A DNA stretch of 64,000 nt from Comamonadaceae bacterium ALPHA2B (GTDB lineage Bacteria; Pseudomonadota; Gammaproteobacteria; Burkholderiales; Burkholderiaceae_C). Each line of letters opens with the position of its first letter. Within the stretch, counting starts at the first letter, position 1. The stretch spans positions 124,001 through 188,000 of the forward strand of contig SCOE01000002.1 in assembly GCA_005503065.1 (NCBI GenBank), written 5' to 3'. Position numbers and translations under genes: made by a program. Positions 5,284-25,944 of this stretch are shown in pieces. The notes beneath the pieces are model-generated. The model saw only the letters and a list, made by a program, of their open reading frames with translations. It made no database searches and was not told where the DNA came from.

Positions 5284-6836
5284 ACCAGCCCCTGCAGCAC
5301 GCCGGGGGCGAAATGCTCGTCGACGAAATCGGCCAGGGCGTCGAAGGTGGCGTCCAGCGTGGGCACCTGGGTGCCGAACAGCGCACGCAGCACCGCGGCG
5401 TCTTCGAACAACCCGTGCAGATAGACGGCCAGCACGTTGCCACGCGCGTTCTGCCAGGCCAGGCCGTCGGGCATGACCGCGCCGCCGTCGCCCTGGAGCT
5501 GGGGATGCTCGGCCGTCTGGCCGTGGTGGACCTCGTAGCCGACCGCCTCGACGCCGGATAGCGCCGACCAGGCCCCGCGCAGGGGGCCGAAGCGTGCCCG
5601 GCGACGGCGCACGGTCTTCTCGCGTGCGAAGACGGTCACCAGCGGCAGCAGGCCCAGGCCCGGCGCATTGCCATCGATGCCGTGGGGATCGACCAGCGCC
5701 TCGCCCAGCATCTGCAGGCCGCCGCAGATGCCCAGCACCGCGCCTCCCGCCGCCGCGTGCGCAGCCACGGCGCGGTCCAGGCCCTGGGCCCGAAGCCATT
5801 GCAGATCGCTGCTCGTGTGCTTGGAGCCCGGCAGCACGATCCAGTCCTGCGGGCCGAATCCTGCCAGCTGGCTCGCATGGCGCACCCAGACCAGGCGCAG
5901 CCCCGGCACGCGCTTGAGCGGCTGGAACTCGTCGAGGTTGCTGATGCGCGGACAGGCCAGCACGCCCACCGTGCGCAGCACCTCGCCCGGCCCCTGCGCA
6001 ACGCCGTCGTCGAACACGCCGTCCTCCTCGGGCAGGCCGTGCTGCCACCACATGGGCAGCGTGGCGACCGTCGGCACGCCCGTCAGCGCCAGCAGCTGCG
6101 CCGGACCCGGCGCCAGCAGCGACGCGTCGCCCCGGAACTTGTTGAGCACGAAACCGGCCAACAACGCCCGGTCTTCATCGGGCAGCAAGGCCCAGGTGCC
6201 GTAGAGGTGCGCGAAGGCACCACCGCGGTCGATGTCGGTCACGAGCAGGCAGCGCGCGCGCGCACGGTGCGCCGTGCGCATGTTGACGAAATCGCTCTCG
6301 CGCAGGTTGATCTCGGCCGGCGAGCCGGCCCCCTCGATGACGACGACCTCGTTCTCGGCCACCAGCTCGTCCAGGGCCTGCGCGATGCGCGGCCACACGG
6401 CAGCGCTGCGCGCCCGCCACGGCATGCGCGACAACGCCTCGTCGACCTGCCCCAGCATCACGACCTGGCTCGCCGTGTCGCGCTCGGGCTTGAGCAGCAG
6501 CGGGTTCATGCGCACCTCGGGCACGGCACGCGCGGCCAGGGCCTGGAAATACTGGGCGCTGCCGATCTCGCCGCCCGGGTCATCCAGGCCGGCGGCCGCT
6601 GCCGAGCCGCCGCCGGGCCGCCCCAAGGCGGCGAGCGCCCCCTCGGGGGGCAGCGAACCTCGCGCAGCGGGGAGCGTGGGGGCGATGACCACTCTTGCGT
6701 TGTTGCTCATGTTCTGCGCCTTGAAGGGCGCGACGCTCAAGCCCTGCCGCGCGTACCAGCGGCACAGGGCCGTGGCCAGCCAGCTCTTGCCGGCACCGCT
6801 GGTGGTGCCGAGGACCATCACGCAACGGGCGGGCAT
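5277..6836 (-). CDS. cobQ: Cobyric acid synthase (with repeat-derived insertion)
   Basis: Glutamine-dependent amidation of adenosylcobyrinic acid a,c-diamide to cobyric acid. N-terminal synthetase domain: P-loop GTTSGAGKS (10-18), FKAQNMSNN (38-46), GGEIGSAQYFQA, EGAGSPAEINL and VTDIDRGGAFAHLYGT. C-terminal class I glutaminase domain: Cys nucleophile in GICGGLQMLG and catalytic His in LHGLFED. At 519 residues it is longer than usual because about 37 residues (50-86) interrupt the normally contiguous NNAR...GGEIG region. This stretch is low-complexity and comes from a dispersed hairpin repeat (6609-6683). If the insert is tolerated, it must be accommodated close to the substrate-binding loop. 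Confidence 0.93.
   Translation of the reverse strand: MPARCVMVLGTTSGAGKSWLATALCRWYARQGLSVAPFKAQNMSNNARVVIAPTLPAARGSLPPEGALAALGRPGGGSAAAAGLDDPGGEIGSAQYFQALAARAVPEVRMNPLLLKPERDTASQVVMLGQVDEALSRMPWRARSAAVWPRIAQALDELVAENEVVVIEGAGSPAEINLRESDFVNMRTAHRARARCLLVTDIDRGGAFAHLYGTWALLPDEDRALLAGFVLNKFRGDASLLAPGPAQLLALTGVPTVATLPMWWQHGLPEEDGVFDDGVAQGPGEVLRTVGVLACPRISNLDEFQPLKRVPGLRLVWVRHASQLAGFGPQDWIVLPGSKHTSSDLQWLRAQGLDRAVAAHAAAGGAVLGICGGLQMLGEALVDPHGIDGNAPGLGLLPLVTVFAREKTVRRRRARFGPLRGAWSALSGVEAVGYEVHHGQTAEHPQLQGDGGAVMPDGLAWQNARGNVLAVYLHGLFEDAAVLRALFGTQVPTLDATFDALADFVDEHFAPGVLQGLVQ
6609..6683 (-). repeat. Hairpin-rich repeat (family R1) inserted in cobQ
   Basis: On the minus strand it reads GCCCCCACGCTC, then CGCTGCCCCCCGAGGGG, then CTTGGGGCGGCCCGGCG. 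The same three blocks in the same order, at near-identical spacing, occur at 20172-20252 in cobO. The central CCCCC/GGGGG arms form a strong hairpin. Here it is translated in frame on its own strand (read as LPPEGALAALGRPGG), whereas in cobO the complementary strand is read. Confidence 0.8.
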
Positions 6837-6978
6837 CAGCAGACCGGGCTCGAAGCGGGATGACGGAAGGCGAGGCGCATCGAAAAATCATAGCCGGGGC
6901 CACGGCGGCACTGTTCCGCATGCCGTCGGGCGCCTCTGTGCACCCCGGCCGCACGCACGCCGTGGCATGCTCGGCCGC

Positions 6979-7947
6979 ATGAACGAACTCCTCCTGCCCA
7001 CCTATGACGACGTGGCCGCCGCGGCCGAACGGCTGCACGGCCATGCCCACCGCACGCCGGTGATGACTTCGCGCACAGTCAATGCCGAACTGGGCGCCGA
7101 GGTCTTCTTCAAGTGCGAGAACCTGCAGCGCATGGGCGCCTTCAAGTTCCGCGGCGCCTTCAACGCGCTGTCGAAGTTCACGCCCGAGCAGCGCCGGGCC
7201 GGCGTGGTCGCCTTCTCTTCCGGCAACCATGCACAGGCCATCGCTTTGTCGGCCCGGTTGCTGGGCATGCCGGCCACCATCGTGATGCCGCACGATGCTC
7301 CGGAGATGAAAGTGGCAGCCACGCGCGGCTACGGCGCGCAGGTGGTGATCTACGACCGCTACCAGGACGACCGTGAGCAGATCGGCCGCGACCTGGCGAC
7401 CAGGCATGGCTACACCCTCATCCCGCCCTACGATCACCCGGACGTGATCGCCGGCCAGGGCACGGCGGCCAAGGAACTGTTCGAAGAGGTCGGTCCGCTC
7501 GACGCCTTCTTCGTCTGCCTGGGCGGCGGCGGGCTGCTGTCGGGCTCGGCGCTGGCCACTCGCGCCCTGTCGCCGGCCTGCAGGCTCTACGGTGTCGAGC
7601 CCGAGGCCGGCAACGACGGCCAGCAGTCCTTTCGCCAGGGCGCCATCGTGCGCATCGACACGCCCAAGACGATCGCCGACGGCGCGCAGACGCAGTACCT
7701 CGGCCAGCTCACCTTCCCGATCATCCGGCGCGACGTGGATGACATCCTCACCGCCACCGACGCCCAGTTGGTCGATGCGATGCGCTTCATGGCCGCGCGC
7801 ATGAAGCTGATCGCCGAGCCGACCGGCTGCCTCGGCTTTGCGGCCGCGCGTGCCATGACGGCGCAGTTGCGCGGCCAGCGCGTGGGCGTACTGATCAGCG
7901 GCGGCAACGTCGACATCGGCCGCTTCTGCGAGCTGATGGCCCTGTGA
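6979..7947 (+). CDS. Threonine/serine dehydratase (PLP-dependent, no regulatory domain)
   Basis: Fold-type II PLP enzyme of 322 residues that deaminates threonine, serine or a related hydroxy-amino acid. The PLP lysine is in MGAFKFRGA (about residue 55), with SSGNHAQAIA for cofactor binding and the glycine-rich phosphate loop CLGGGGLLSG. There is no C-terminal ACT domain, so it matches the catabolic TdcB / serine racemase / threo-3-hydroxyaspartate ammonia-lyase branch, not biosynthetic IlvA. I chose ATG 6979 (MNELL); an ATG at 6967 is in frame too. The exact substrate is uncertain. Confidence 0.88.
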   Translation: MNELLLPTYDDVAAAAERLHGHAHRTPVMTSRTVNAELGAEVFFKCENLQRMGAFKFRGAFNALSKFTPEQRRAGVVAFSSGNHAQAIALSARLLGMPATIVMPHDAPEMKVAATRGYGAQVVIYDRYQDDREQIGRDLATRHGYTLIPPYDHPDVIAGQGTAAKELFEEVGPLDAFFVCLGGGGLLSGSALATRALSPACRLYGVEPEAGNDGQQSFRQGAIVRIDTPKTIADGAQTQYLGQLTFPIIRRDVDDILTATDAQLVDAMRFMAARMKLIAEPTGCLGFAAARAMTAQLRGQRVGVLISGGNVDIGRFCELMAL

Positions 7948-7995
7948 GAGATGCTGTTCGGGCAGGCACAGGGGGTGCCGGGCCCACGGCCGAGC

Positions 7996-8187
7996 TCAGC
8001 CCAGCCCTGTGTCGTAGCGGGTGAGCGCCCCGCTTCGGCTCGCTTCGATGCCGCGCCCGGGACGCACCGAAAACATGCACAGCGCCACCACGATGGCTGC
8101 GCATGCGACCAGCGACCACCAGCCGAAGGCATAGACCAGACCTGCCGGCAGCGCCAGGGAGACCAACAACAGAAGAAGAAGCCGCAT
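7996..8187 (-). CDS. Small membrane protein, unknown function
   Basis: A 63-residue protein: a strongly hydrophobic N-terminus (MRLLLLLLVSLALPAG), a second hydrophobic segment (LVACAAIVVALCMF), then a short polar tail. Two membrane helices, or a signal plus one helix, are likely. AAAGGATT lies about 12 bases upstream of the ATG, which supports translation. I do not recognise a family. It is convergent with the dehydratase gene. Confidence 0.5.
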   Translation of the reverse strand: MRLLLLLLVSLALPAGLVYAFGWWSLVACAAIVVALCMFSVRPGRGIEASRSGALTRYDTGLG

Positions 8188-8469
8188 GGTGTCCGCAATC
8201 CTTTTGAAGGGTGGCCTCGAATCACCCGCTCGAGCTCGGGGTCGAGCCCAAGGGGGTGTTTTCGACCGGACCAAGGAACTACGCCCGGCTTGGCGACGAA
8301 AGATGCATGGTAGGGGCCGCCGCGCCGCCAGCCCGCGCCGTCGCGGCGCAACCACATCTTTTGAGCGGAACAAGATCACAGGATGCGGTCCCGGCGCCGT
8401 CCTACCACCAAATGCAGATGGTCAGAGGCATGCTCGTTCCACACAATGCGTTGAACCGAGGATCTGCCC
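8188..8469. other. Intergenic region between divergent small genes
   Basis: About 280 bases separate the minus-strand small membrane protein from the plus-strand 88-residue protein. It must hold both promoters, but I find no convincing -35/-10 pair, conserved structure or repeat in it. Confidence 0.3.
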
Positions 8470-8736
8470 ATGCCCATCGCCGACGACCTGGACCTGCTGA
8501 CCGACGGCGCGCTGGCCGAACTGGCCAGCGTCGAACGCCAGCGCGCGCTGCGCGGCGATCGCAGTGCCTTCGGGCGCGCCCACCTGCTGGAGCGCGAACT
8601 GCGCCGACGGGCGGGCACGATCAGCGGCTTCGGACCGCCGCTGGACCTCTCGCCGGCCCGGTCGCCGAAGCGGTGGTGGCAGTTCTGGGGACGCACCCCG
8701 GGCGCTGCGGGCGGCGCGGTCGGCCTGCGCTATTGA
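8470..8736 (+). CDS. Hypothetical 88-residue protein
   Basis: A charged, mostly helical N-terminal half (ADDLDLLTDGALAELASVERQRALRG) and a basic, Trp-rich C-terminal part (KRWWQFWGR). There is no signal peptide or membrane helix. GAGGAT lies about 8 bases before the ATG and a good terminator follows directly, so it looks like a genuine single-gene transcription unit. Family not recognised. Confidence 0.55.
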   Translation: MPIADDLDLLTDGALAELASVERQRALRGDRSAFGRAHLLERELRRRAGTISGFGPPLDLSPARSPKRWWQFWGRTPGAAGGAVGLRY

Positions 8737-8745
8737 TTCCCAACA

Positions 8746-8766
8746 GGCGCCTCGGGCGCCTTTTTT
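8746..8766 (+). terminator. Rho-independent terminator after the 88-residue gene
   Basis: A perfect GGCGCC / GGCGCC stem with a 3-base loop is followed by six T residues, 10 bases after the stop codon of the upstream gene. Confidence 0.85.
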
Positions 8767-8827
8767 GTGCCCGCGCAACGTGAAGTGCAACCGGCCCGCA
8801 GCGCCCGCCAGCCGGGCGCCGCGGCCG

Positions 8828-8851
8828 AATTCGTCACGAACGTGACGAATT
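8828..8851. repeat. Perfect 11-bp inverted repeat over the oprN-like stop codon
   Basis: AATTCGTCACG is followed, after 2 bases, by its exact complement, overlapping the last codons and stop of the outer-membrane channel gene. On the plus strand it runs into TTTT, so it could act as a terminator for either strand, or be a protein-binding palindrome. Function not determined. Confidence 0.6.
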
Positions 8852-10342
8852 TTCCTCGCTCTTGGCTGCCGCCCCCACGCGGGCGGGCGCATCCCATCCG
8901 CCGCCCAGGGCACGAACCAGTCCCACCGCCGCCTGGTACTGGGCGGCCTTGACCTGCAGCGCCTGCCGCTGGTTGCGCAGCTCGCTGCGGCGTGCGTCCA
9001 GCAGGTCGAGCTGGCTGATGTAGCCGTTGCGGTAGCGCGTGTCCGACAGCTGCGTGGCGCGCCGGGCCGAATCGACCGCCGTCTGCTGCACCTGCGCCTG
9101 CTCCTGCAGGAGGCGGATGGCCGAAAGCTGGTCCTCCACATCCTTGAAGGCATTCAGCACCTGCGCCCGGTAGTCGGCCAGCGCCTCGTCGAGCTGGCCC
9201 GAGGCGTTCTGCACGCCGGCCTCGCGCCGACCGCCGTCCAGGATGGGCAGCGACAGCAGCGCGCCGATGCCCCACGAACGGGCCGACCACTTGAACAGGT
9301 CACCGATTTCGGGCGAGGCGAAGCCGCCGCCGGCCGTGAGCGCGATGTCGGGGAAGTACGCCGCCTGCGCAGCACCCACGCGCGCCTGCGCCGCCAGCAC
9401 GGCCGCCTGCGAGGCCGCGACGTCCGGGCGCCGCGTCAGCACCGTGGCCGGCACGCCGGCCGGGATGCTCGGCAGCGCGGTGGTCCAGTTCTCGGGACGG
9501 ATGCCGAAGCTGGCCGGCGGCTCGCCGGTGAGCACGGCCAGCGCATGTTCCAGTTCGGCGCGCCGGCGGTCGAGTGCGATCGCATCCGATTCGGTGGCCG
9601 AGACTTCGGTCTGCACGCGTGCGACATCCAGGTCGGCCACATCGCCCGCCTGCTGCCGGCGCTGCGTGAGGCGCAGCGTGTCGCGATACGCCTCGACGTT
9701 GTCGCGCACCAGCACGCGCTCGGCATCCACCGCGCGCAGGGCCAGGTAGGTCTGCGCCACCTCGGCCTGCACCAGCAGGCGCGTGCTCTGCAGCAGCGCC
9801 TCGCGCTGCTGCGCATCGAGCCGAGCGGCCTCGCTGGTGCGCGACAGGCGGCCGAACAGGTCCAGTTCGTACGACGCCGTCAGGCCGGCGTTGATGAGGG
9901 TCGACGGCCGGTTGCTCTGGTTGCGGTCCAGCCCCTGCTGGCGCGTGGCGCCAGCGCCGGCGCCGAGCTGCAGCGAGCGGTCCGCGTCGGTGATGCGGGC
10001 CAGCGCGCGCGCCTGGCGCACGCGCGCCACGGCCTGCTGGATGCTGGTGTTGCCGCCCTCGTCGCGAACCGCACGCTCGACCAGGCTGTCGAGGATAGGG
10101 TCACGGAAGGCGCGCCACCATTCGCCGCGCGGCTGCGATTCGGCGGGCACGGCACGGGTCCACTGCCCCTCGCCAGGCGCCGCGGCCCGCGCCGTGGGCG
10201 CTTCCTTGAACTGGGCCGGGGTGGCCATGTCCGGCAGCCCGGAGGGCGCCGTCGCACAGCCGGCCAGCACGAGGGCGGCCATCAGCGGTGCCAGCGCCGC
10301 GCGCAACGGCTGCCGGAGTCGGGTTGCTATCGAAGCATGCAT
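8834..10342 (-). CDS. RND efflux outer-membrane channel lipoprotein (NodT/OprN family)
   Basis: TolC-like outer-membrane exit duct of a tripartite pump, 502 residues. The signal peptide ends in a lipobox (LVLAGC), so the mature N-terminal Cys is lipidated. Two OEP repeats are visible, with long helical heptad stretches (QREALLQSTRLLVQAEVAQT; GQLDEALADYRAQVLNAFKD) and the family phrase YELDLFGRLSR. I chose ATG 10342 because AAGGAG precedes it by about 8 bases. The upstream ATG at 10372, which overlaps the pump-gene stop, has no such site. It is third gene of the adaptor - pump - channel operon. Confidence 0.92.
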   Translation of the reverse strand: MHASIATRLRQPLRAALAPLMAALVLAGCATAPSGLPDMATPAQFKEAPTARAAAPGEGQWTRAVPAESQPRGEWWRAFRDPILDSLVERAVRDEGGNTSIQQAVARVRQARALARITDADRSLQLGAGAGATRQQGLDRNQSNRPSTLINAGLTASYELDLFGRLSRTSEAARLDAQQREALLQSTRLLVQAEVAQTYLALRAVDAERVLVRDNVEAYRDTLRLTQRRQQAGDVADLDVARVQTEVSATESDAIALDRRRAELEHALAVLTGEPPASFGIRPENWTTALPSIPAGVPATVLTRRPDVAASQAAVLAAQARVGAAQAAYFPDIALTAGGGFASPEIGDLFKWSARSWGIGALLSLPILDGGRREAGVQNASGQLDEALADYRAQVLNAFKDVEDQLSAIRLLQEQAQVQQTAVDSARRATQLSDTRYRNGYISQLDLLDARRSELRNQRQALQVKAAQYQAAVGLVRALGGGWDAPARVGAAAKSEENSSRS

Positions 10343-10368
10343 GGTTCTTCTCCTTCGCTTCGTTTCAT

Positions 10369-13300
10369 TCATTCATGCCGGCCGACCGGTGCCGCGGGCT
10401 GCGGCAACAGGCCGCCGCCGTGGCCACCGCCAGCACCCGGAGCCGGATGGCTGGCCGAGACGAAGTCCTCGCCGTGCGGCACTTCGCCATGCAGCTTGAG
10501 CGGGCGGTTGCCGGTGAGCCGGCGCAGCGCCACGTAGAACACCGGCGTGAGGAACAGGCCGAAGGCCGTCACACCGATCATCCCGGCGAACACCGCCACG
10601 CCCATGGCCGTGCGCATCTCGGCGCCGGCGCCCGTGGCCAGCACCAGGGGCAGCACCCCCATGACGAAGGCCAGCGAGGTCATCAGGATCGGGCGCAGCC
10701 GCAGGCGGCTGGCCTCGATCGCGGCCTGCACCGGCGTGCGGCCGGCGAACTCCAGCTCGCGGGCGAATTCGACGATCAGGATCGCGTTCTTCGCACTGAG
10801 CCCCACGAGCACGATGAGCCCGATCTGGGTGAAGACGTTGTTGTCCCCGCCCGAGATCCACACGCCCGTCATCGCGGCCAAGAGGCCCATGGGCACGATG
10901 AGGATGATCGACAGCGGCAGCGTCAGGCTCTCGTACTGCGCGGCCAGCACCAGGAACACCAGCAGGATGGCCAGCGGGAACACCACCACCGCCGAGTTGC
11001 CGGCCAGGATCTCCTGGTAGGTCAGGTCGGTCCACTCGAAGCTCACGCCCTTGGGCAGCGTCTCGGCCGCGATGCGCTTGATCGCGTCCTGCGCCTGGCC
11101 CGACGAGAAGCCGGGCGCGGCGCCGCCGTTGATGTCGGCCGTGAGGTAGCCGTTGTAGCGCATGGCGCGCTCGGGGCCGAAGCTGGACTGCACCTTGAGC
11201 AGGGCCGACAGCGGGATCATCTCGCCCGACGACGAGCGCACCTTGAGCATGCCGATGTCCTCGGCCCGCGCGCGGTACGGCGCATCGGCCTGCACGCGCA
11301 CGCTGTAGGTGCGGCCGAACTTGTTGAAGTCGTTCGCGTACAGGCTGCCCAGGTAGATCTGCATGGTGTCGAAGATGTCCGTCACCGGCACGCCGAGCTG
11401 GCGCGCCTTGGTGCGGTCGACGTCGGCATACAGCTGCGGCACGTTGACCTGCCAGCTGGTGAACATGCCCGTGAGCTCCGGCGCCTGGTAGGCCTTGGCC
11501 ATGAAGGCCTTCACCGCCGCGTCCATCTGGTCGTAGCCGACCGACGCGCGGTCCTCCAGCTGCAGCTTGAAGCCACCCGTGGTGCCCAGCCCCGCCACCG
11601 GCGGCGGCGGGAACATCACGATGAACGCGTCCTGGATGCCGGCGAAGGCCTGGTTGAGCTGGCCCGCCACCGCGCCGCCCGACTGGTCGGCGCGCTTGCG
11701 CTGGTCGAAGGGCTTGAGCGTCGCGAAGACGATGCCCGAGTTCGAGCTGTTGGTGAAGCCGTTGATCGACAGGCCCGGGAACGCGAGCGTTTCCTCGACG
11801 TTCGGGTTCTTCTTCATGATCTCGCCCATGCGGCGGATCACCTCGTCGGTGCGGTCCAGCGTGGCGCCGTCGGGCAGCTGCGCGAAGCCGATCAGGTACT
11901 GCTTGTCCTGCGTGGGCACGAAGCCGCTGGGCACCGCCTTGAAGAGGCCGAAGGTCACGCCCACCAGCGCGAGGTAGATCACGAACATGATCGTCTTGCG
12001 CGAGATCACGCTCTTCACGCCGCCGCTGTAGGCCTCGGAGCCGCGCTGGAACACGCGGTTGAAGCCGCGGAACAGCCAGCCCAGCGCCTTGTCCATGCCG
12101 CGCGTGAGCGCGTCCTTGGGTGCGTCGTGACCGCGCAGCAGGAGCGCCGCGAGCGCCGGAGACAGCGTCAGCGAGTTGATGGCCGAGATCACCGTCGAGA
12201 TGGCGATGGTGACCGCGAACTGGCGGTAGAACTGCCCCGTGAGGCCGCTGATGAAGGCCAGCGGCACGAACACCGCCACCAGCACCAGCGCGATCGCGAT
12301 GATCGGGCCCGAGACCTCGCGCATGGCGCGGTAGGTGGCCTCGCGCGGCGTGAGCCCGGCCTCGATGTTGCGCTCCACGTTCTCGACCACCACGATCGCG
12401 TCGTCCACCACGATGCCGATGGCCAGCACCAGCCCGAAGAGCGACAGCGCGTTGATGGAGAAGCCCAGCAGGTGCAGCACCGCGAAGGTGCCGATCACCG
12501 ACACCGGCACCGCCAGCAGCGGGATGATCGACGCGCGCCAGGTCTGCAGGAACAGGATGACCACCAGCACCACCAGCATGATGGCCTCGAGCAGCGTGTG
12601 GATCACCGACTCGATCGATGCGCGCACGAACTGCGTCGGGTCGTAGGCGATGCGGTACTCCAGCCCTTCGGGCATGTTCTTGTTGAGCTCGACCATGGTC
12701 TTGCGCACGTTGGACGAGATGTCCAGCGCGTTCGAACCCGGGGCCTGGAACACGCCCATGCCCACCGCCGGGTTGTTGTTGAGCAGCGAGCGCAGCGAGT
12801 AGTCGGCCGCGCCGAGTTCGATGCGCGACACGTCGCGCAGCCGCACCACCTGCCCGTCGGCACCGCTCTTGACGATGATGTCGCCGAACTCCTCCTCGGT
12901 GGTCAGGCGCCCCTGCGCGTTGACCGACAGCTGCACGTCGATGCCCGAGAGCCCCGGCGAGGCGCCGATCACGCCCGCGGCGGCCTGCACGTTCTGGCCG
13001 CGGATGGCCGCCACCACGTCGGCGGCCGACAGCCCGCGCTGGGCCACCTTCTGCGGGTCGAGCCAGATGCGCATCGAATAGTCGCCGCCGCCGAAGACCT
13101 GGACCTGGCCCACGCCCTCGATGCGCGCCAGCTGGTCCTTGACGTTGAGCACGGCGTAGTTGCGCAGGTAGTCGATGCCGTAACGCCCGTTGGGCGACAC
13201 CAGGTGCACCACCATCGTGAGGTCGGGCGCGCTCTTGACCGTGGTCACACCCAGGCGGCGCACTTCCTCGGGCAGGCGCGGCTCGGCCTGCGAGACGCGG

Positions 13301-13632
13301 TTCTGCACGAGCTGCTGCGCCTTGTCGGGGTCGGTGCCAAGGCGGAAGGTGACGGTCAGCGTCATCACGCCGTCGGTCGTTGCCTGGCTGCCCATGTAGA
13401 GCATGCCCTCGACGCCGTTGATCTGCTCTTCGAGCGGCGTGGCCACCGTTTCGGCGATGACCTTGGGGTTGGCGCCCGGGTACTGGGCGCGCACGACCAC
13501 CTGCGGCGGCGCGACCTCGGGGTATTCCGAGATCGGCAGCCCGCGCAGCGCGATCAGGCCGGCGATCAGCATGAGCAGCGACAGCACGCCGGCAAAGATC
13601 GGCCGGTCGATGAAGAATTTGGAGAGGTTCAT
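10369..13632 (-). CDS. RND multidrug efflux transporter, inner-membrane pump (MexF/AcrB family)
   Basis: Proton-driven HAE1-family pump of 1087 residues, slightly longer than usual because of a Gly/Pro-rich tail. It begins MNLSKFFIDRPIFAGVLS, the standard first helix. TM4 carries the proton-relay acids (GIVVDDAIVVVENVERN), and the second-half motif GLSAKNAILIVEFA supplies the relay Lys. Large periplasmic loops and 12 membrane helices are evident. It is similar to the MexF/BpeF type. The gene sits 31 bases after the adaptor gene and is followed by the outer-membrane channel, so one operon encodes the whole pump. Confidence 0.95.
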   Translation of the reverse strand: MNLSKFFIDRPIFAGVLSLLMLIAGLIALRGLPISEYPEVAPPQVVVRAQYPGANPKVIAETVATPLEEQINGVEGMLYMGSQATTDGVMTLTVTFRLGTDPDKAQQLVQNRVSQAEPRLPEEVRRLGVTTVKSAPDLTMVVHLVSPNGRYGIDYLRNYAVLNVKDQLARIEGVGQVQVFGGGDYSMRIWLDPQKVAQRGLSAADVVAAIRGQNVQAAAGVIGASPGLSGIDVQLSVNAQGRLTTEEEFGDIIVKSGADGQVVRLRDVSRIELGAADYSLRSLLNNNPAVGMGVFQAPGSNALDISSNVRKTMVELNKNMPEGLEYRIAYDPTQFVRASIESVIHTLLEAIMLVVLVVILFLQTWRASIIPLLAVPVSVIGTFAVLHLLGFSINALSLFGLVLAIGIVVDDAIVVVENVERNIEAGLTPREATYRAMREVSGPIIAIALVLVAVFVPLAFISGLTGQFYRQFAVTIAISTVISAINSLTLSPALAALLLRGHDAPKDALTRGMDKALGWLFRGFNRVFQRGSEAYSGGVKSVISRKTIMFVIYLALVGVTFGLFKAVPSGFVPTQDKQYLIGFAQLPDGATLDRTDEVIRRMGEIMKKNPNVEETLAFPGLSINGFTNSSNSGIVFATLKPFDQRKRADQSGGAVAGQLNQAFAGIQDAFIVMFPPPPVAGLGTTGGFKLQLEDRASVGYDQMDAAVKAFMAKAYQAPELTGMFTSWQVNVPQLYADVDRTKARQLGVPVTDIFDTMQIYLGSLYANDFNKFGRTYSVRVQADAPYRARAEDIGMLKVRSSSGEMIPLSALLKVQSSFGPERAMRYNGYLTADINGGAAPGFSSGQAQDAIKRIAAETLPKGVSFEWTDLTYQEILAGNSAVVVFPLAILLVFLVLAAQYESLTLPLSIILIVPMGLLAAMTGVWISGGDNNVFTQIGLIVLVGLSAKNAILIVEFARELEFAGRTPVQAAIEASRLRLRPILMTSLAFVMGVLPLVLATGAGAEMRTAMGVAVFAGMIGVTAFGLFLTPVFYVALRRLTGNRPLKLHGEVPHGEDFVSASHPAPGAGGGHGGGLLPQPAAPVGRHE

Positions 13633-13663
13633 GACGAACTTTCAGCGAAGCGCTCGCGCGCGT

Positions 13664-14968
13664 TCAGGGGTTCGAGGCCAGCTTGCCGGCCTTGGCGCTG
13701 CCTTGCGCCGTGGCATCCATGGGCACGGGCTTGGGATCGACCAGCACGCCGGGGCGCACGTGCTGCAGGCCGTTGACCACGATCCGCTCGCCCGGCTTGA
13801 GGCCGGAAGCCACCACGCGCAGGCCGTTGATGGGCGCTCCCAGCGTGACCTCGCGGTACTCGGCCTTGTTGTCGGCGTTGACGACCATGACGAACTTCTT
13901 GTTCTGGTCGGTGCCCACGGCCCGCTCGGCCACCAGCAGCGCCTTGCTCTCCTGCGCCTGGCCCATGCGGATGCGGGCGAACTGGCCCGGGATCAGGGCG
14001 CCGTCCTTGTTCTCGAAGGTGGCGCGCACGCGCACCGTGCCGCTCTTTGCGTCGACCTGGTTGTCGATGAGCTGCAGCTTGCCCTCGAAGGGCGTGCCAT
14101 CGGTGGCCGCCGTGCCCATCTGCACGGGGATCTGGCCGATGAGCGAGCGGGCGCTGGCGCCGCCGGGCATGTCGCGCAGGGCGCGGCCGATGACCTGCTC
14201 GTCGGCATCGAAGCTGGCGTAGATCGGGCTCACCGACACCAGCGTGGTCAGCACCGGCGCGCCGGGACCGGCGGCGACGAGGTTGCCCACCGTCACTTCG
14301 AGCTTGCCGATGCGGCCGGCGACCGGCGCACGCACCTGGGTGTAGGACAGGTTGAGCTTCGCGCTCTGCAGCGAGGCTTGCGCGGCGCGCAGGTTGGCGT
14401 CGGCCTCGTTGCCGGCGTTCAGGCGCTCGTCCAGTTCGCGCTGGGCGATGGCCTGCTCGGCATACAGGCGCCGCGCACGTTCCTGTTCGCTGCGGGTGTA
14501 GGCGGCACGCGCCTGGGCCGACGCGACCTGCGCCGCGGCGCGGTCCACCTCGGCCTTGTAGGGGGCCGGGTCGATGGTCACGAGCAGGTCGCCCTGCTTG
14601 ACCAATGCGCCCTCGCGGAAATGAACGCTCTGCACCGCGCCGGCGACGCGCGAGCGCACGTCGACGCGCTCCACCGCCTCCAGCCGGCCGGAGAACTCGT
14701 CCCAGGCGTTGACCTGCGTTTCGGTGACGGTGGCGACCGACACCGGCGTGGCCTGCGGCTGCTGCTGCGCCGGCGGGTTGCTGGCCTCGGCCTTGAAGCT
14801 GTGCATGCCGAAGACGCCCGCCGCGACGGCCAGCACGGCCGTGACGCCGGTGACGGTGGGCCACACGCTGCGGCGTGCCAGCGATGGCCAGGCCGGGTTC
14901 GCCGGGGTGGATTGCGCCCCGGCACCTTCGGAGCGGTCGGGCGTGTTGTTGTTGGTCGGGTTCGACAT
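13664..14968 (-). CDS. RND efflux periplasmic adaptor (MexE family)
   Basis: Membrane-fusion protein of 434 residues linking pump and channel. There is one N-terminal membrane anchor (about residues 36-55), then the lipoyl half-motif GRLEAVERVDVRSRVAGAV, a coiled-coil hairpin (AAYTRSEQERARRLYAEQAI), the second lipoyl half (RAPVAGRIGKLEV) and beta-barrel/membrane-proximal domains. It is the first gene of the three-gene efflux operon. There is no lipobox; anchoring is by the uncleaved helix. No dedicated regulator adjoins; the nearest is the LysR gene beyond the hydrolase. Confidence 0.92.
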   Translation of the reverse strand: MSNPTNNNTPDRSEGAGAQSTPANPAWPSLARRSVWPTVTGVTAVLAVAAGVFGMHSFKAEASNPPAQQQPQATPVSVATVTETQVNAWDEFSGRLEAVERVDVRSRVAGAVQSVHFREGALVKQGDLLVTIDPAPYKAEVDRAAAQVASAQARAAYTRSEQERARRLYAEQAIAQRELDERLNAGNEADANLRAAQASLQSAKLNLSYTQVRAPVAGRIGKLEVTVGNLVAAGPGAPVLTTLVSVSPIYASFDADEQVIGRALRDMPGGASARSLIGQIPVQMGTAATDGTPFEGKLQLIDNQVDAKSGTVRVRATFENKDGALIPGQFARIRMGQAQESKALLVAERAVGTDQNKKFVMVVNADNKAEYREVTLGAPINGLRVVASGLKPGERIVVNGLQHVRPGVLVDPKPVPMDATAQGSAKAGKLASNP

Positions 14969-15198
14969 GGTTCGTCCTTGTGGGTACTTCGGGGATGCAA
15001 CAACCCTCCGGGCGCGGGTGGCGCCCGTCGGGAACGGATGATTTCGGGTACGTCGCCAGCGCGTCGGCTCAGGACGCGCGGGTCCCGTCGGCGTTCGTCA
15101 GGCGAAAGCTCCCTCCGGACGGCGGTCTCCGCGCCGTCTCGTGCCTTGTAGTGATGGCGCCCCCTCTGCGGAGGCCGATGCGTCTGGCGCCTACGCGC
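14969..15198. other. Promoter region of the efflux operon
   Basis: About 230 bases between the adaptor start and the next gene's stop. It contains several short GC-rich palindromes but no open frame or regulator site I can identify. It should carry the pump promoter. Confidence 0.35.
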
Positions 15199-16071
15199 CT
15201 AATGGGGCGGCGGCGTCGCGGCCTGGAAGAAGGCGCGGAACTGTTCTTCCACGCTCTGCTCGCAGGCCGCACAGGCATTGCTGTCGGGTTCGTACAGCGC
15301 CTCGGGCCAGTTCGACGCGCCAGGCAGCACCTGGCTGGTCACCGGGATGCCGGCGTCGCCCAGGCGCTTGGCATAGGCCAGCGCCTCGTCGCGCATCGGG
15401 TCGTCCTGGCCCACCAGCACCAGCGTGGGCGCGATGTCGGCCAGCCGCAGCGACGAGCCGGGCACCGCATAGGGATGCAGCGCATCCATCGGGCGGTGCA
15501 GGTACTTCTGCCAGCCCTCGGCCCATTTGCAGCTCACCGTCGCTTCGGCACAGCTCGCCTCGCGCAGAGACGCGGTGCCGGCGCAGGGATCGAGCATCGG
15601 CGACAACAGCACCTGGCCCGCGAGCGGCGGGTGCGCGCGGTCGCGGGCCACCAGGGCCACGGCCGCTGCCAGGTTGCCACCGGCCTCTTCGCCGGCCAGG
15701 AAGATGCGCGCGCCCTTGCCCACGAGCTTGGTGCGCTGCTTGTAGAGCCACTCCAGCACCGCGTAGCCGACCTCGATGGGCTTGGGGAACGGGAACTCGG
15801 GGGCCAGCGGATAGGCCAGCGACACCACGAAGGCGCCGGCGCGCGCCAGCAGCCGGCCCACCGTGCGGCCGTTGTCGAGGTCGCCGCACACGAAAGTGCC
15901 GCCATGGAAGTGCAGCACCACCGGTTGCCCGGCACCGCCGGTCTTCTCGCCGTAGGTGCGGGCGTCGACGCCTTCGCCCTGGGGCAGCTCGATCCGGATG
16001 TCCTTCTCGGCCACGGCACGCCCGGCCGGGGCTTTGGCCTCTGGCTGCTGCGGGGTGGGACGGGATGACAT
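15199..16071 (-). CDS. Alpha/beta hydrolase (HSL family) lacking the catalytic serine
   Basis: A 290-residue protein of the hormone-sensitive-lipase/esterase branch. The oxyanion motif HGG is intact (residues 56-58 in LHFHGGTFVCGD), and the acidic-residue segment VLVGQDDPM is present. However, the nucleophile elbow, normally GDSAGG, reads AGEEAGGNLA, putting Glu129 in the serine position. The usual C-terminal catalytic His motif also appears to be replaced (LPGASNWPEAL). A CxxC (ACAAC) occurs near the C-terminus. The ATG at 16071 has GGAAGG upstream. Divergent from a LysR gene, which probably regulates it. The fold is secure; esterase activity is doubtful. Confidence 0.85.
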   Translation of the reverse strand: MSSRPTPQQPEAKAPAGRAVAEKDIRIELPQGEGVDARTYGEKTGGAGQPVVLHFHGGTFVCGDLDNGRTVGRLLARAGAFVVSLAYPLAPEFPFPKPIEVGYAVLEWLYKQRTKLVGKGARIFLAGEEAGGNLAAAVALVARDRAHPPLAGQVLLSPMLDPCAGTASLREASCAEATVSCKWAEGWQKYLHRPMDALHPYAVPGSSLRLADIAPTLVLVGQDDPMRDEALAYAKRLGDAGIPVTSQVLPGASNWPEALYEPDSNACAACEQSVEEQFRAFFQAATPPPH

Positions 16072-16286
16072 GGTGCGGACCTTCCGGATCAACGATGGAT
16101 GAAATATAAGGGGCGCCGGCAACGCATGAAACCGGCCAGTGCGCCCCACTCTGTTTCCGGGACGACAACAATCGCGGCCTTCCCAGGCCCCAGAATCCGA
16201 CCCCTTCCCCGGAACAGGTCAATGCGCATCCACAAGAATGCGCGCTCGCGGGCGCCTGCGACGTCAGCAACCATCCCTTTGTACCT

Positions 16287-17204
16287 ATGGACCAGATCCA
16301 AGCCATGCGCGTGTTCGTGCGGGTCGTCGAGGCCGGCAACTTCACGCGCGCCGCCGACTCGCTCGACCTGCCCAAGGGCACCGTCACCAAGCAGATCCAG
16401 GCCCTGGAGGCCCGGCTGCACGCGAAGCTGCTCAACCGCACGACGCGGCGTGTCACGGTCACGCCCGACGGCGCCGCGTATTTCGAGCGCGCCGCGCGCC
16501 TGCTGAACGACTTCGACGAGCTCGAGGCCAGCATGGCGAACGCGCAGGCGGCGCCCACCGGGCGGTTGCGCATCGACGTGGGGACCTCCACCGCGCGCCT
16601 GGTGGTCATCCCGGCGCTGGCGTCGTTCTGCGACAAGTACCCCGACATCCAGGTCGACCTGGGCGTGAGCGACCGGCCGGTGGACCTGATCAGCGACAAC
16701 GTCGACGTGGTGATCCGCGCCGGCGACATCACCGACCAGTCGCTGGTGGCCCGGCGCATCGGCAACCTGCCCTTCATCACCGTCGCCTCGCCCGGCTACC
16801 TGAAGAAGTACGGCACGCCGGCCCATCCGCGCGACCTGGAGCGCGGCCGCCACCACGTGGTGAACTTTTTCGCCGGCAACACGCGGCGCATCTACCCGCT
16901 GGAGTTCAACAAGGACGGGGAAACCGTCGAGATCGGGGGCCCCTACCGCGTGTCGGTGAACGAAAGCAACGCCCACACCACCGCGGTGCTGGCCGGTTTC
17001 GGCGTGTCGCAGATGGTGAGCTTCATCGCGGCGCCCTACCTGGCCAGCGGCGACCTGGTCCAGCTCATGCCCGACTGGACGCGCGACTCGCTGCCGGTGC
17101 ACGTGGTCTACCCGCCGAACCGGCACCTGAGCGCCAAGGTGCGGGCCTTCGTGGACTGGGCGGCCGAGGTATTTGCCCGCGATCCGCAGCTCGCGCGAGC
17201 CTGA
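16287..17204 (+). CDS. LysR-family transcriptional regulator
   Basis: A 305-residue regulator. The winged helix-turn-helix occupies about residues 1-60 (FTRAADSLDLPKGTVTKQI, then LLNRTTRRVTVTPDGAAYF), followed by a linker helix and the effector-binding domain (RLRIDVGTSTARLVVIPAL...). It belongs to the large DsdC/AaeR-like subgroup that recognises aromatic or small acidic effectors. It is divergent from the degenerate hydrolase with a 215-base shared upstream region, the classical arrangement for autoregulation and target control. Confidence 0.92.
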   Translation: MDQIQAMRVFVRVVEAGNFTRAADSLDLPKGTVTKQIQALEARLHAKLLNRTTRRVTVTPDGAAYFERAARLLNDFDELEASMANAQAAPTGRLRIDVGTSTARLVVIPALASFCDKYPDIQVDLGVSDRPVDLISDNVDVVIRAGDITDQSLVARRIGNLPFITVASPGYLKKYGTPAHPRDLERGRHHVVNFFAGNTRRIYPLEFNKDGETVEIGGPYRVSVNESNAHTTAVLAGFGVSQMVSFIAAPYLASGDLVQLMPDWTRDSLPVHVVYPPNRHLSAKVRAFVDWAAEVFARDPQLARA

Positions 17205-17284
17205 AGCGCGAAAAATAGCAAACCTTTGGGTTACATTTCGGCCCTCCGGTGCCGCTTCGGGCTCCGGGCAATCGGGCCCCCCTG

Positions 17285-17641
17285 ATGAACCATGTGATGC
17301 GCGCCTGGACGTTCTGGATCCGCGCCGAACTCCGCGACGAATGCCGGGAACACCTGGAGAACACCAAGCTCCCCGAACTGCGCGCCATACCCGGCAACCT
17401 GCGCACCGCCGCCATCTTCCGCGACCTGGGCGACGGCACGACCGAGGTGGTCGTCGCTTCGCTGTGGGATTCGCTGGAGAGCATCAAGGCCTTTGCGGGC
17501 ATCGACTACCTCAAGCCGACCATCGACCCGGCCGACAAGGGCAAGCTGCTCGACCGCGACGTGATCGTGCGCCACTACAGCATCGATGCGATGGATGCCG
17601 ACGTGTTCGAGCGCGCGCTGGGGTCGCCGCTGCCGCTCTAG
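17285..17641 (+). CDS. Small dimeric alpha-beta barrel (ABM-like) protein
   Basis: A 118-residue protein resembling antibiotic-biosynthesis-monooxygenase/stress-responsive barrel proteins: RAWTFWIRAELRDECREHLE, then TAAIFRDLGDGTTEVVVASLWDSLESIKAFAG, then a C-terminal acidic helix. Such proteins form dimers; activity is unknown here. ATG 17285 is used; an internal ATG at 17297 would also leave the domain whole. It follows the LysR gene by 80 bases and may be co-transcribed. Confidence 0.65.
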   Translation: MNHVMRAWTFWIRAELRDECREHLENTKLPELRAIPGNLRTAAIFRDLGDGTTEVVVASLWDSLESIKAFAGIDYLKPTIDPADKGKLLDRDVIVRHYSIDAMDADVFERALGSPLPL

Positions 17642-17644
17642 GGC

Positions 17645-18679
17645 TCACATCCAGCGCCCGCGCAGCGTGCTCCACGCGGTTGCCAGGGCGTCCTGGCTGG
17701 CGGGCGGCAGCACGCCGACGCGCACGCATGCCGGCACGCCGAAGGATGCGCAGTCGCGCAGCTTGATGCCTTGGGCCCGCAGGCCTTCCAGTCCCGCCTG
17801 CAACGGCACGCCGGCCGGCCAACGCGCACAGAAGAAGTTGGCCACGCTGGGGATCGGTTCCCAGCCGAGCGCCGCACACAGCGCCTGCTGCCGGCGCTTC
17901 CAGGTGGCAAGTACCGGCAGGCTGCCCGAGAGCCAATGCTGGGCTGGCGCGTCGGTCCAGGCCTGCAGCATCGCCACCGCATGCGCACCGAGCGGCCAGG
18001 ACGGTGCGAGGGCGCCCAGGCGCGCCAGCATGGCCGGCGCCGCCCCGGAGGGTGCGATCGCATAGGCGCCGCGCACCCCCGTCAGTCCGAGCGCCTTGTT
18101 GGGCGAATGGAGCTGCCACACGCGTGCCAGGCGCCGGGGGCCCAGGCTGCCGGCCGCGGGTTCGTCCAGGCGCAGCGGCGCGTAGGCGCGGTCGAGCACG
18201 AATGGGCGATCGGCCGGCCAGGCGTCGACACGCGCCGCCAGCTCGGGATCGTCCTGCCCCAGCGGCGTCGACGGCTCGCAGCCCCACGCGAGGCACGCTG
18301 CGGGCGCCAGGGGATCGGTCGCCGAGGCCACCTGCACAGTCAGCCCGTGCGCCCGGGCGGCGCGGGCGTAGTCGCCGTAGGCCAGCGCCGGCACGACCGC
18401 CGTGCCACCGCCCTCGCCTGCTGCTGCGGCGGCCGTGATCCGCGCGATGAACTCGCTGGCGCTGGCGGCCACGACGATCCGTTCCCGGTCCACGCCATGG
18501 AAGGCCGCGAGCTGCTCGCGCAAGGCCATGTACCGCGGATCGGGGTAGCGGGTGGGGTCGGCGGCGCGCAGCGCCTCCAGCACCGGCGGGCAGGGGCCGC
18601 AGGCGTTGGCATTGGTCGAGAAGTCATGCAACGGAACGCCCTGCGCGTCCGGCCCGCCGTGCACGTTCATGTCCTCCAT
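17645..18679 (-). CDS. cobD: Threonine-phosphate decarboxylase
   Basis: PLP enzyme (aminotransferase fold I, histidinol-phosphate aminotransferase-like) that makes (R)-1-amino-2-propanol phosphate, the linker of the cobalamin nucleotide loop. It is 344 residues long. The N-terminal DFSTNANACGPCP corresponds to the usual DFSxNxNPxG motif, with RYPDPRY following, and the PLP lysine is in SPNKALGLTGVRGAY. Its start lies 4 bases after the cbiB stop, and it is the last gene of the riboswitch-controlled cobalamin operon. Named in the Salmonella scheme (CobC in Pseudomonas). Confidence 0.92.
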   Translation of the reverse strand: MEDMNVHGGPDAQGVPLHDFSTNANACGPCPPVLEALRAADPTRYPDPRYMALREQLAAFHGVDRERIVVAASASEFIARITAAAAAGEGGGTAVVPALAYGDYARAARAHGLTVQVASATDPLAPAACLAWGCEPSTPLGQDDPELAARVDAWPADRPFVLDRAYAPLRLDEPAAGSLGPRRLARVWQLHSPNKALGLTGVRGAYAIAPSGAAPAMLARLGALAPSWPLGAHAVAMLQAWTDAPAQHWLSGSLPVLATWKRRQQALCAALGWEPIPSVANFFCARWPAGVPLQAGLEGLRAQGIKLRDCASFGVPACVRVGVLPPASQDALATAWSTLRGRWM

Positions 18680-18683
18680 GTGT

Positions 18684-19679
18684 TCATCCGACGGGCATGA
18701 AGCCGAGGCCCCCCGCAGCAGCGAGTGCGAGGCTGGCCGACGCGGCGGTGGCCATCACCACGCGGCCACCCAGCCGCGCGCACCGTTGGACATCCGCGGA
18801 CGAGGGTGCGCGGCCATCCGCATGCAAGGTGTAGACACCCGGCTTGCGCAGCCGCACGCCGAGCATGAGCGCCATCGCTGCCATCGGCCAGCCGCTGTTG
18901 GGCGATGGCGTACGAGCGGCCTCCCGGGCCAGATGCGGCGGCCAACGCCGCGCCGCCAGGGCAATGAGCAGCGCGCTGAGCCGGGCCGGCAACCACGACA
19001 GCCCATCGTCCACCCGCGCCGCCCACTTGCCCGCCCAGGCCCAGCAGCGGCCGCCGCGCTCGCCGGGGTAGCCCCACATCGCGTCGGCCGTGTTGGCGAA
19101 GCGGTAGACGGCCGCGCCCGGCAGGCCGAAGAGCACGAACCAGAACAGCGGTGCGACCACCGAATCGTTGAGGTTCTCGGCCAGCGATTCGATCGCGCTC
19201 TCGCGCACGGCCTCGGCATCGAGCGACTGCGTGTCGCGGCTGACGAGATGGGCCAGCCGCGTGCGGCCGGCTTCGAGCGACTCCGCCAGCGCCACGTCGA
19301 CCGCCAGCACCTCGTCGCGCAGCATGCGCCAGGCCATCAGCGGCTTGAGCGCCAGCGCCAGCGTGAGCGCCGCCACCGGCCAGGGCAGATGGCGCATCAC
19401 ATGCCATTGCAAGGCCCATGCCGCTACGAAAACCATAGCAGCCCCCGCCCACCAGGCCAGCGCTCCGAGCACAAAAGGCTTGAAAATTCCGGGCAGGGGC
19501 GCATCGGCCGACGGGGCGATGCGCGGGCCGGCCCAGCCGAGCCACGCCCCCATCCACACGACCGGATGCCAGCGCGCGGGCGGTTCGCCCAGCCAGCGAT
19601 CGATGGCCAGCGCGAGCCACAGCGCGCCGACGGCGACGCAGGCGTGGGCGCCGAGCAAAACCTCAGACGTCGCGGGCAC
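18684..19679 (-). CDS. cbiB: Adenosylcobinamide-phosphate synthase
   Basis: Membrane enzyme that attaches aminopropanol phosphate to adenosylcobyric acid. It is 331 residues long. Conserved blocks are AIDRWLGEPPARWHPVVWMG, RDTQSLDAEAVRESAIESLAENLNDS, VVAPLFWF, YRFANTADAMWGYPGE and PSPNSGWPMAAMA. I chose the GTG at 19679 because GGAAAGG lies just upstream. The frame stays open to 19811, but that extension is translated repeat DNA, not conserved protein. A dispersed repeat also lies inside the gene (19419-19484, read as part of the first membrane helices). Confidence 0.92.
   Translation of the reverse strand: MPATSEVLLGAHACVAVGALWLALAIDRWLGEPPARWHPVVWMGAWLGWAGPRIAPSADAPLPGIFKPFVLGALAWWAGAAMVFVAAWALQWHVMRHLPWPVAALTLALALKPLMAWRMLRDEVLAVDVALAESLEAGRTRLAHLVSRDTQSLDAEAVRESAIESLAENLNDSVVAPLFWFVLFGLPGAAVYRFANTADAMWGYPGERGGRCWAWAGKWAARVDDGLSWLPARLSALLIALAARRWPPHLAREAARTPSPNSGWPMAAMALMLGVRLRKPGVYTLHADGRAPSSADVQRCARLGGRVVMATAASASLALAAAGGLGFMPVG
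19419..19484 (+). repeat. GCTAT-type dispersed repeat, copy 2 (inside cbiB)
   Basis: GCTAC, a short spacer, then CATAGC, followed by CGCCCACCAGGCCAGCGCT and AAAAGGCTTG. It aligns with the other copies of the family and is translated on the minus strand between the conserved N-terminal blocks of CbiB. Confidence 0.65.
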
Positions 19680-19727
19680 GACACCTTTCCGATCCGGTGC
19701 GTTCCAGGCGGCCGCGGAGCAGGCCAC

Positions 19728-19823
19728 GCGCGGGCACCCGTGGAGCGGGCTTTGCCCGGCCAACGGGTGCGCCCCCTTCGCGCAGCGGAAGGGGGAGCCG
19801 CGCAGCGGCATGGGGGTTGTTCA
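19728..19823 (-). repeat. Post-stop hairpin repeat (family R2), copy 1
   Basis: It starts just after the cobO stop on the minus strand: CCCCCATGCCGCTGCGCGG, then the hairpin CCCCCTTC/GAAGGGGG, then GGTGCCCG-type arms. The same blocks occur at 43421-43583 directly after the tctC stop. It separates cobO from cbiB and keeps an open frame into cbiB. Confidence 0.75.
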
Positions 19824-19825
19824 TT

Positions 19826-20479
19826 TCAATCCTCGATGCCGCGCTGCGCGGGGATGCCGGCCTTGAACGCGTGCTTGACCATCTGCATCTCGGTCACCGT
19901 GTCGGCCAGCTCGACGATCTCGGGCGGGCAGCGGCGGCCGGTGAGCACCACGTGCACTTCGCGAGGCCGCTCGCGCAGCGTCTGCAGCACGGCGTCGAGC
20001 GGCAGCCAGCCGTAGATCAGCGGGTAGGTGATCTCGTCGAGCACCACGAGGAAGAACTCGCCCGAGAGGATCGCCGCCCTCGCCTTCTCCCAACCGTCGC
20101 GGGCAAGCTGCGCGGAGCGTTCGAGGTCCTGGCTCTTCCAGGAAAAGCCGTCGCCCAAGCCTTCGATCATGGGCCCCCACGCTCGGCACTGCGTGTCCTC
20201 GCTGCCCCCCGAGGGGCCGCTGTCCGGCTTGGGGCGGCCCGGCGCCGGACGGAATGCCTCGAGCTGCTCGAACGCGCGGTGCTCGCCGAAGCGCGCCGTC
20301 GGCACCTTCATGAACTGGAAGATCTTCACCGCCTTGCCGCGGCCGTGGGCGCGCAGCGCCAAGCCGAAGGCCGCCGTGCTCTTGCCCTTGCCGTCGCCGG
20401 TGTTCACCAGCACCAGGCCGCGGCGCTCGCCCTCGGGTTTGTCGTAGGGCTTGTCGGTGGGGGGTGTTTCGATGTGCAT
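19826..20479 (-). CDS. cobO: Cob(I)yrinic acid a,c-diamide adenosyltransferase (with repeat-derived insertion)
   Basis: ATP:corrinoid adenosyltransferase (CobA/BtuR type) that forms the Co-adenosyl bond. It is 217 residues long. The P-loop is [10 protein letters not shown] (26-35); [17 protein letters not shown] and [22 protein letters not shown] are the expected later motifs. Between [10 protein letters not shown] (to 73) and [10 protein letters not shown] (from 105) about 30 extra residues appear, rich in Pro, Gly and Ser, encoded by a hairpin repeat (20172-20252). In relatives as I recall them, these two blocks are nearly adjacent. It lies between btuD and cbiB in the cobalamin operon. Confidence 0.93.
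20172..20252 (+). repeat. Hairpin-rich repeat (family R1) inserted in cobO
   Basis: The plus strand reads GCCCCCACGCTC, CGCTGCCCCCCGAGGGG and CTTGGGGCGGCCCGGCG, the same ordered blocks as in cobQ at 6609-6683. cobO is read from the other strand, so the two insertions use opposite orientations of one element yet both keep an open frame. Confidence 0.8.
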
Positions 20480-20507
20480 GGAGTCAGCAGAGAAATGCGG
20501 GATCGGG

Positions 20508-20619: not shown

Positions 20620-20633
20620 TCCGTTTTCAAGTT

Positions 20634-25834: not shown

Positions 25835-25944
25835 GGGACGAAAAGGATTCCAGCAGCAATGCCCTGGCCGGCTTCCCCGCCGGCGCCTGGGCGCCATGGC
25901 CGCCGCGACGAGCCCCGGGGGACATCGAACATGGCAACCGCCTT

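Follow-up and report, generated by a model that had tools for sequence, protein, structure and literature searches.

A dispersed three-hairpin repeat of Comamonadaceae-type bacteria lies in frame within conserved genes and forms mini-ORFs in operon gaps

Rickettsia palindromic elements (RPE) are hosted by AT-rich, obligate intracellular bacteria. According to passages of PMC2229807 and PMC10969869, these short dispersed palindromes lie in frame within many unrelated conserved genes and also between genes; the former source gives them a length of 105-146 bp and a 12-bp terminal inverted repeat, and the latter a conserved peptide. ERIC/RU-1, YPAL/RU-2 and the 107-bp Correia element are likewise presented, in passages of PMC2229807 and PMC2759123, as small mobile sequences with open reading frames (ORFs) fused in frame to genes, YPAL elements being 'co-translated with upstream genes' in the wording of PMC2229807, which cites De Gregorio 2006 on this point. 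Here we describe an element with likeness to both groups, which is present inside the cobQ and cobO genes of a 64,000-nucleotide stretch of the genome of Comamonadaceae bacterium ALPHA2B (contig SCOE01000002.1, positions 124,001 to 188,000; hereafter the window). Like RPE, it is a short dispersed palindrome found in frame in many unrelated conserved genes as well as between genes. Unlike RPE, it is GC-rich, adds about 84 nt net, is devoid of a terminal inverted repeat, is read on both strands and in several frames, carries hypervariable self-complementary arms and forms mini-ORFs in operon gaps. In the passages of PMC2229807 and PMC2759123 mentioned above, the ERIC, YPAL and Correia elements are described as fusions and new small genes and not as mini-ORFs running from a stop to a start codon, although the behaviour of YPAL may overlap with that of the present element; the terms 'operon' and 'translational coupling' occur nowhere in PMC2759123. 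The Chunjie miniature inverted-repeat transposable element (MITE) of Chen 2008, as described in part of PMC10969869, is 178-235 bp long and bears both terminal inverted and direct repeats, in which it differs from the present element. Two hallmarks of MITEs in general are also absent from the latter, which has no terminal inverted repeat and whose duplications are not of fixed length. Finally, it shares with the repetitive extragenic palindromes (REPs) of REP/RAYT systems, according to passages of PMC2817692, a numerous occurrence of palindromes in which sequence varies while pairing is kept.

The repeat is probably a short non-autonomous mobile element that has been retained preferentially where ribosomes can pass through it. 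Its 17-mer core occurs in 22 exact copies in the ALPHA2B genome (G000; 6,000,488 bases, 6.0 Mb), whereas the same pattern read backwards has no copy genome-wide, even with 2 mismatches, and the repeat is therefore not a product of chance. A covariance model (R1) built from 17 typed copies retrieves 65 copies in this genome at E<=0.01 (numbered #1-#65), of which 22 are classed as intragenic, and the further copies on which the proposal of a mobile repeat in a first-pass annotation of the window depended are thus present. In a survey with stricter filters (E<=1e-6) the model finds the element in 66 of 80 genomes of the family, and an order-wide draw of 100 genomes includes 11 carriers, namely ALPHA2B itself, two others from its family and 8 of the 97 genomes that lie beyond the family. 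The named carriers among the matches listed include Variovorax, Polaromonas, Hydrogenophaga, Xenophilus, Rhodoferax, Ramlibacter, Acidovorax and Comamonas. Six plasmid records matched, none covering 80% of the query, phage records gave no match, and among the curated Rfam models, with the gathering threshold alone applied, only the cobalamin riboswitch matched in the window. Exact copies were also noticed in contigs labelled as other groups (L136, L169, Desulfovibrionaceae bin; L113, Zoogloea bin), which may reflect mis-binning or transfer, and head-to-tail arrays of 2-5 elements with a spacing of roughly 78-89 nt exist, for instance at G141:C1:2692249-2692660 and G180:C35:103658-103907.

A constraint on the behaviour of the element comes from sites that are filled in ALPHA2B and empty in relatives. 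Flanks were mapped in the same-genus genomes G008, G010 and G002 and in other loci (41 pairs prepared; #56 and #57 unreached), with gains measured between exact anchors on both sides and with genes modelled by our own codon-score calls, which also underlie the intragenic and intergenic classes. An empty orthologue was obtained for 34 copies, 17 classed as intragenic and 17 as intergenic, and the net insertion mostly amounts to 73-94 nt. For 16 intragenic copies a gene model of the relative encloses the empty site in all rows or almost all (L050 for #9 and L046 for #17 are the exceptions). The gain is a multiple of 3 in each row, the values against the nearest relatives being 84, 84, 87, 84, 84, 90, 87, 84, 84, 87, 90, 78, 84, 81, 78 and 87 nt. 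None of the 17 intergenic sites falls inside a relative's gene, and gains there are multiples of 3 in every row for 5 sites (#2, #26, #36, #38, #46), in some rows for 2 (#3, #7) and never for 10. A gain divisible by 3 follows of necessity where the ORF is intact on both sides; what is informative is that none of the mapped insertions breaks a gene. Filled in-gene alleles (#10, #45, #53, #35) differ by -24, -45, -30, +12 and +9 nt. At operon junctions, duplications such as TGACATG, GACATG, CCTGACATG and GATG were recognised by eye.

A frame bias is also seen between genes. The 65 copies comprise, besides the 22 intragenic ones (9 sense, 13 antisense), 28 in sense and 7 in antisense orientation within co-directional gaps and 8 elsewhere; in five other genomes (G074, G080, G084, G099, G100), represented by 60 copies that are the best-scoring of a longer list, the sense-to-antisense ratio in such gaps is 41 to 3. 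Most sense copies in operon gaps form a mini-ORF that opens at the upstream stop and closes at the downstream start. In ALPHA2B 20 of the 28 sites are tight, and 18 of these are coupled when any start codon is allowed, against 5 and 2 after the in silico addition of 1 or 2 nt (Fisher p 7e-8); with ATG only, 15 are coupled against 4 and 1. The five other genomes behave alike, with 34 of 41 sites tight and 24 of these coupled against 8 and 6 in the shifted controls (Fisher p 2e-6), or 23 against 7 and 4 with ATG only. The mini-ORFs use all three frames of the element (13/4/3 by script, 14/4/2 by eye, with #29 apparently misassigned) and therefore do not represent one clonal ORF. In none of 8 copies in convergent gaps was an ATG seen by eye that joins the upstream stop and begins a frame open into the element; in one of them, L405, the ATG is closed at once by a stop. 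Taken together, intragenic and coupled copies account for 40 of 65 in ALPHA2B and, among the copies from the five other genomes, for 30 of 60, so that the rule is a preference and not universal. A subfamily in G074 (e.g. L381, L388) starts with ATGAAACGCCCCC and ends with AGGAGGCCTGACATG, and its start codon, Shine-Dalgarno sequence and stop may travel with the element.

In 5' to 3' order the element consists of GCCCCCACGCTC, a covarying hairpin 1 of about 5 bp, hairpin 2 (GCCCCC-CGA-GGGGGC) and hairpin 3, in which two arms enclose the loop block TTGGGGCGGCCCGGC. Hairpin 2 is nearly invariant among the aligned copies, although its core was what the copies were first found by. No terminal inverted repeat exists in the aligned copies: nothing at their 3' end is complementary to the 5' GCCCCCACGCTC, and the palindromes are the three internal hairpins. 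Changes on both sides of a pair amount to 43 cells on 17 copies, against 14.6 in shuffles. The arms of hairpin 3 are hypervariable, with 139 different left arms among 256 distinct copies, and yet they match each other within a copy: 6.76 of 8 positions pair within copies against 3.46 across copies, and at least 7 of 8 do so in 72% of the former comparisons and 2.7% of the latter. Mispairs in these 256 copies comprise 27 G.T and 32 A.C, and this absence of a G.T excess fits DNA-level palindromes better than a single strand of RNA. Across 20 orthologous pairs of filled sites, a count by hand gave 18 changes that create or abolish a pair from one side and only 1 compensated change; the non-orthologous #17-L059 and the misplaced #52-L334 were set aside, and 7 rows without a recognisable loop are outside the count. 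As the arms are paired within a copy and later changes are mostly one-sided, arm complementarity looks as though it is set when a copy is made and decays afterwards, to judge from these alignments. Three chimeric copies (#53, #59, #65) have hairpin 3 swapped for another palindromic module (GGCCCCGGCCAAGCCGGGGCGGGCGATCC...).

The genes that harbour the element have no common function. Among 20 scanned host proteins, 19 receive a name from Pfam (the scan did not extend to #56 and #65, and #24 had no match); these are an M3 peptidase, an ABC ATPase (C-terminal), CobO, an FGGY kinase, RecJ, Ldh_2, CobQ, QueA, a protein of acyl-CoA synthetase type, a penicillin-binding protein, an aminotransferase, a sensor kinase, QueF, a molybdopterin oxidoreductase, two FtsX permeases, a FemAB-like protein, a ferredoxin/NAD oxidoreductase and a hydrolase. 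The significance that had been attached to two insertions in one B12 pathway is not supported, as the 22 copies classed as intragenic sit in functionally unrelated genes, among them those of RecJ, QueA, QueF and FGGY-kinase type. By eye, at least 8 of the 9 sense copies in genes use a SLPPEGA-type frame, and the 13 antisense ones read PSGG (10) or a PLGGQ-type peptide (3). These preferred frames suggest that in-gene copies are filtered at the protein level. One conserved peptide common to all in-gene copies was not found, sense and antisense copies reading different peptides.

The two copies of the window fit this picture and are probably, as part of the same reading, two ordinary family members in insertion-tolerant loops. 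The cobyric acid synthase gene cobQ (5277-6836, minus strand; CbiA and GATase_3 domains by Pfam) contains a sense copy at 6600-6689 (minus strand), placed by the covariance model and by empty sites, that reads VIAPTLPAARGSLPPEGALAALGRPGGGS and adds 90 nt net with respect to the nearest same-genus empty sites. The ATP:corrinoid adenosyltransferase gene cobO (19826-20479, minus strand; identified by its ORF, Pfam and a PDB match) contains a copy antisense to the gene at 20167-20255 (plus strand), supported by the covariance model, by empty sites and by a filled allele in G002, with a net gain of 84 nt or 28 residues. Three ordered blocks are shared exactly: the 5' block GCCCCCACGCTC (6672-6683 in cobQ, 20173-20184 in cobO), the core with hairpin 2, CGCTGCCCCCCGAGGGG (6639-6655 and 20200-20216), and the conserved loop block of hairpin 3, CTTGGGGCGGCCCGGCG (6611-6627 and 20228-20244), all on the minus strand in cobQ and on the plus strand in cobO, the arms around the loop being GCCGCC/GGCGGC in the former and GTCCGGC/GCCGGAC in the latter. 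The first-pass annotation was right in reporting these blocks, in stating that conserved regions of CobQ and CobO are interrupted, and in that both ORFs run uninterrupted through the repeat, with the element strand read by cobQ and its complement by cobO. Its estimate of about 37 and 30 residues held as to the presence of the inserts and was a little too high as to the net gain: CobQ is longer by 90 nt (30 aa) and CobO by 84 nt (28 aa), and when relatives whose native loops are longer or shorter serve as the reference, the CobQ gain ranges from 72 to 108 nt. None of the 14 same-genus relatives searched (13 loops read, the 14th being L035), whose native loops vary in length, has the cobQ copy; at the cobO site, G002 is filled while G010 and G008 are empty. 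The proposal of two independent in-frame insertions of one mobile repeat is supported: arms and orientation differ, and the cobQ copy is absent from the relatives searched whereas the cobO copy is also present in G002. The CobO insert lies inside the gap between two stretches that match the solved CobA structure 4HUT (query 18-66 and 102-216), and this, together with the many entries into the CobQ loop described below, bears out the suggestion that specific loops tolerate the element. CobQ had no PDB match at E 0.001, and the single-sequence AlphaFold prediction of CobO, with a mean pLDDT (predicted local distance difference test) of 38.6, was too low for use.

The CobQ loop is an insertion hotspot. 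The CobQ N-terminus was recovered in 137 of 200 family genomes, and among the 18 with split or long loops that were read, 7 carry the element (sense in G141 and G256; antisense in G242, G262, G272, G234 and, partially, G061), 2 another repeat family (G286, G045) and 9 neither; this reading covered neither loops of usual length nor the divergent G105 and G290 matches, so remnants may be missed. With G000 and G016 the loop is occupied in 9 of 137 genomes, plus Polaromonas 39-63-25 (L105), and in both orientations. Repeated insertion is argued by the genera g1, g42 and g56, in which filled members coexist with members that are unfilled by match length. The other repeat family in the loop, recognised by PSPQRGEG...PLPLAGEGRGEG-like peptides in L445 (G286) and L449 (G045), also appears beside the element in the sensor kinase of #35 in L214. 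In G141 (L446) the open CobQ frame that holds the loop copy contains a second copy of the element, some 228 residues beyond the first and after GVFD (from about nt 848 of the locus), and close to the equivalent position G016 CobQ has a gap of about 90 nt. CobO was matched in 120 of 200 family genomes, and a near-identical insert allele is present in G000, G002, G074 and G100 (L013, L319, L400, L461), representing three genera, and absent from the same-genus G008 and G010. Its likeness in the other genera of G074 and G100 indicates one event spread by descent or transfer, for which horizontal transfer or an old polymorphism is offered as a reading.

An untranslated insert in an operon would cause polarity or lose the coupling of the downstream start. 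The element, which has three hairpins and no room for a transposase, would have spread through the chromosomes of Comamonadaceae-type bacteria by means of a factor acting on it. Copies within genes would be kept in tolerant loops, in frame and on either strand, and those in co-directional gaps would be kept tight between stop and start as a mini-ORF in any of three frames, whose translation may preserve translational coupling. It is possible, if short of probable, that the element goes beyond this and serves as a portable translational-coupling module in operon gaps and a tolerated linker in genes, its arms being renewed as complementary pairs at copying and then decaying; the start would be provided at the upstream stop, and a stop, sometimes with a Shine-Dalgarno sequence, in the right arm at the downstream start. 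Several observations weigh against retention by translation of a mobile element. Copy #5, classed as intragenic, lies at a C-terminus, changes length by 62-64 nt and has its site outside the relative's gene, the filled pair #59-L173 differs by 28 nt (-28) within repeats, and one of two CobQ-loop copies in G262 contains a TGA that closes the frame. The equation of intragenic with in frame is partly true by construction, because a gene-breaking copy would be classed as intergenic, so that frame-keeping is properly tested only by the 34 mapped sites. Among the named loci, which were chosen by sequence pattern, 12 of 30 sites are tight, coupling is weaker (5 of 12 against 2 and 0 when shifted) and the orientation bias is weak (30 against 25). 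Target duplications vary in length between about 4 and 9 nt by eye and are unseen at most intragenic sites, and no mobilising enzyme was found, the four Y1 transposase loci examined having no element nearby.

Other explanations account for part of these data. A cis-acting structured RNA selected at operon junctions, for instance with hairpin 3 masking a Shine-Dalgarno sequence and with in-gene copies as by-products, would explain the three-hairpin consensus with its strong covariation, the preference for operon gaps in six genomes and those right arms in which AGGAGG is followed by CCTGACATG and answered by CCTCC in the left arm. The right arm, however, is Shine-Dalgarno-like in only 39 of 256 copies, the mispairs show no G.T excess, the arms decay after insertion, and single-sequence folding of the two window copies, in itself uninformative, gave z values of 0.62 and -0.48, no more stable than shuffles; we consider this explanation unlikely. 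Selection of a selfish element for openness on both strands, which had been put forward from the two window copies, is lent some appeal by the intragenic copies, 17 of 20 being stop-free in six frames against 59% of shuffles. It is nevertheless improbable and not supported as a general property, since in 61 own copies the frequency of antisense stops, 0.77, exceeds the 0.57 of dinucleotide shuffles and that of sense stops, 0.30, is just slightly below the shuffled 0.39, and 49% of 117 named copies are stop-free where shuffles predict 46%. That only the intragenic subset is nearly stop-free points instead to filtering at the insertion site.

Doubts of a similar size attach to the idea that a Y1 transposase moves the element as a palindrome of REP/RAYT or IS200/IS605 type, for which the interspersed palindromes and one Y1_Tnp gene, present in ALPHA2B and in 8 of 9 same-genus relatives searched, could be adduced. 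According to passages of PMC2817692, REPs are headed by GT(A/G)G and lie on the flanks of a RAYT gene, and neither feature was found here: the consensus has no such head before the palindrome, and no element lies within about 1.5 kb of the four Y1 genes. Moreover, G003 has no Y1 match and still matches the element peptide in an open frame. Copying of the hairpin arms from the target on insertion might be imagined from copy #1, whose right arm contains the start codon of the downstream gene, which we take to be purD from its first residues. This candidate was rejected as very improbable, given that in 32 copies the agreement of the empty site with the right arm, over its first 8 nt, is no closer than with the arms of other copies (5.81 for own against 5.54 for others at intragenic sites, 5.12 against 5.22 at intergenic ones). 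An assembly artefact conflicts with the same copies being filled in some separate relatives and empty in others, and a conserved protein domain with the occurrence of the element on both strands and in proteins that are not related; the chance of either is negligible.

In-frame palindromic elements are already known as RPE, ERIC, YPAL and Correia sequences; the family described here, the behaviour of its arms and its mini-ORFs look new, and searches of open-licence literature brought up no report in which this family, such arms or a mobile element with stop-to-start mini-ORFs was recognised. The phenomenon is thereby extended beyond intracellular and enteric bacteria to a large, mostly free-living family. 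By natural insertion the copies map out which loops of conserved enzymes are tolerant, with the CobQ loop occupied in ten genomes, and persistence of those that can be translated through is a simple rule that can be tested. At a practical level, the mini-ORFs and protein inserts derived from the element can confuse annotation and homology searches.

Two further features of the window deserve mention. The cobalamin riboswitch lies at 25931-26186 on the minus strand (51.9 bits). Directly upstream of cobO, a 47-nt inverted repeat with 91% complementarity (GAGGGCGCAAAGGCTTCGCAG...) spans 20504-20623 and may be another dispersed repeat.

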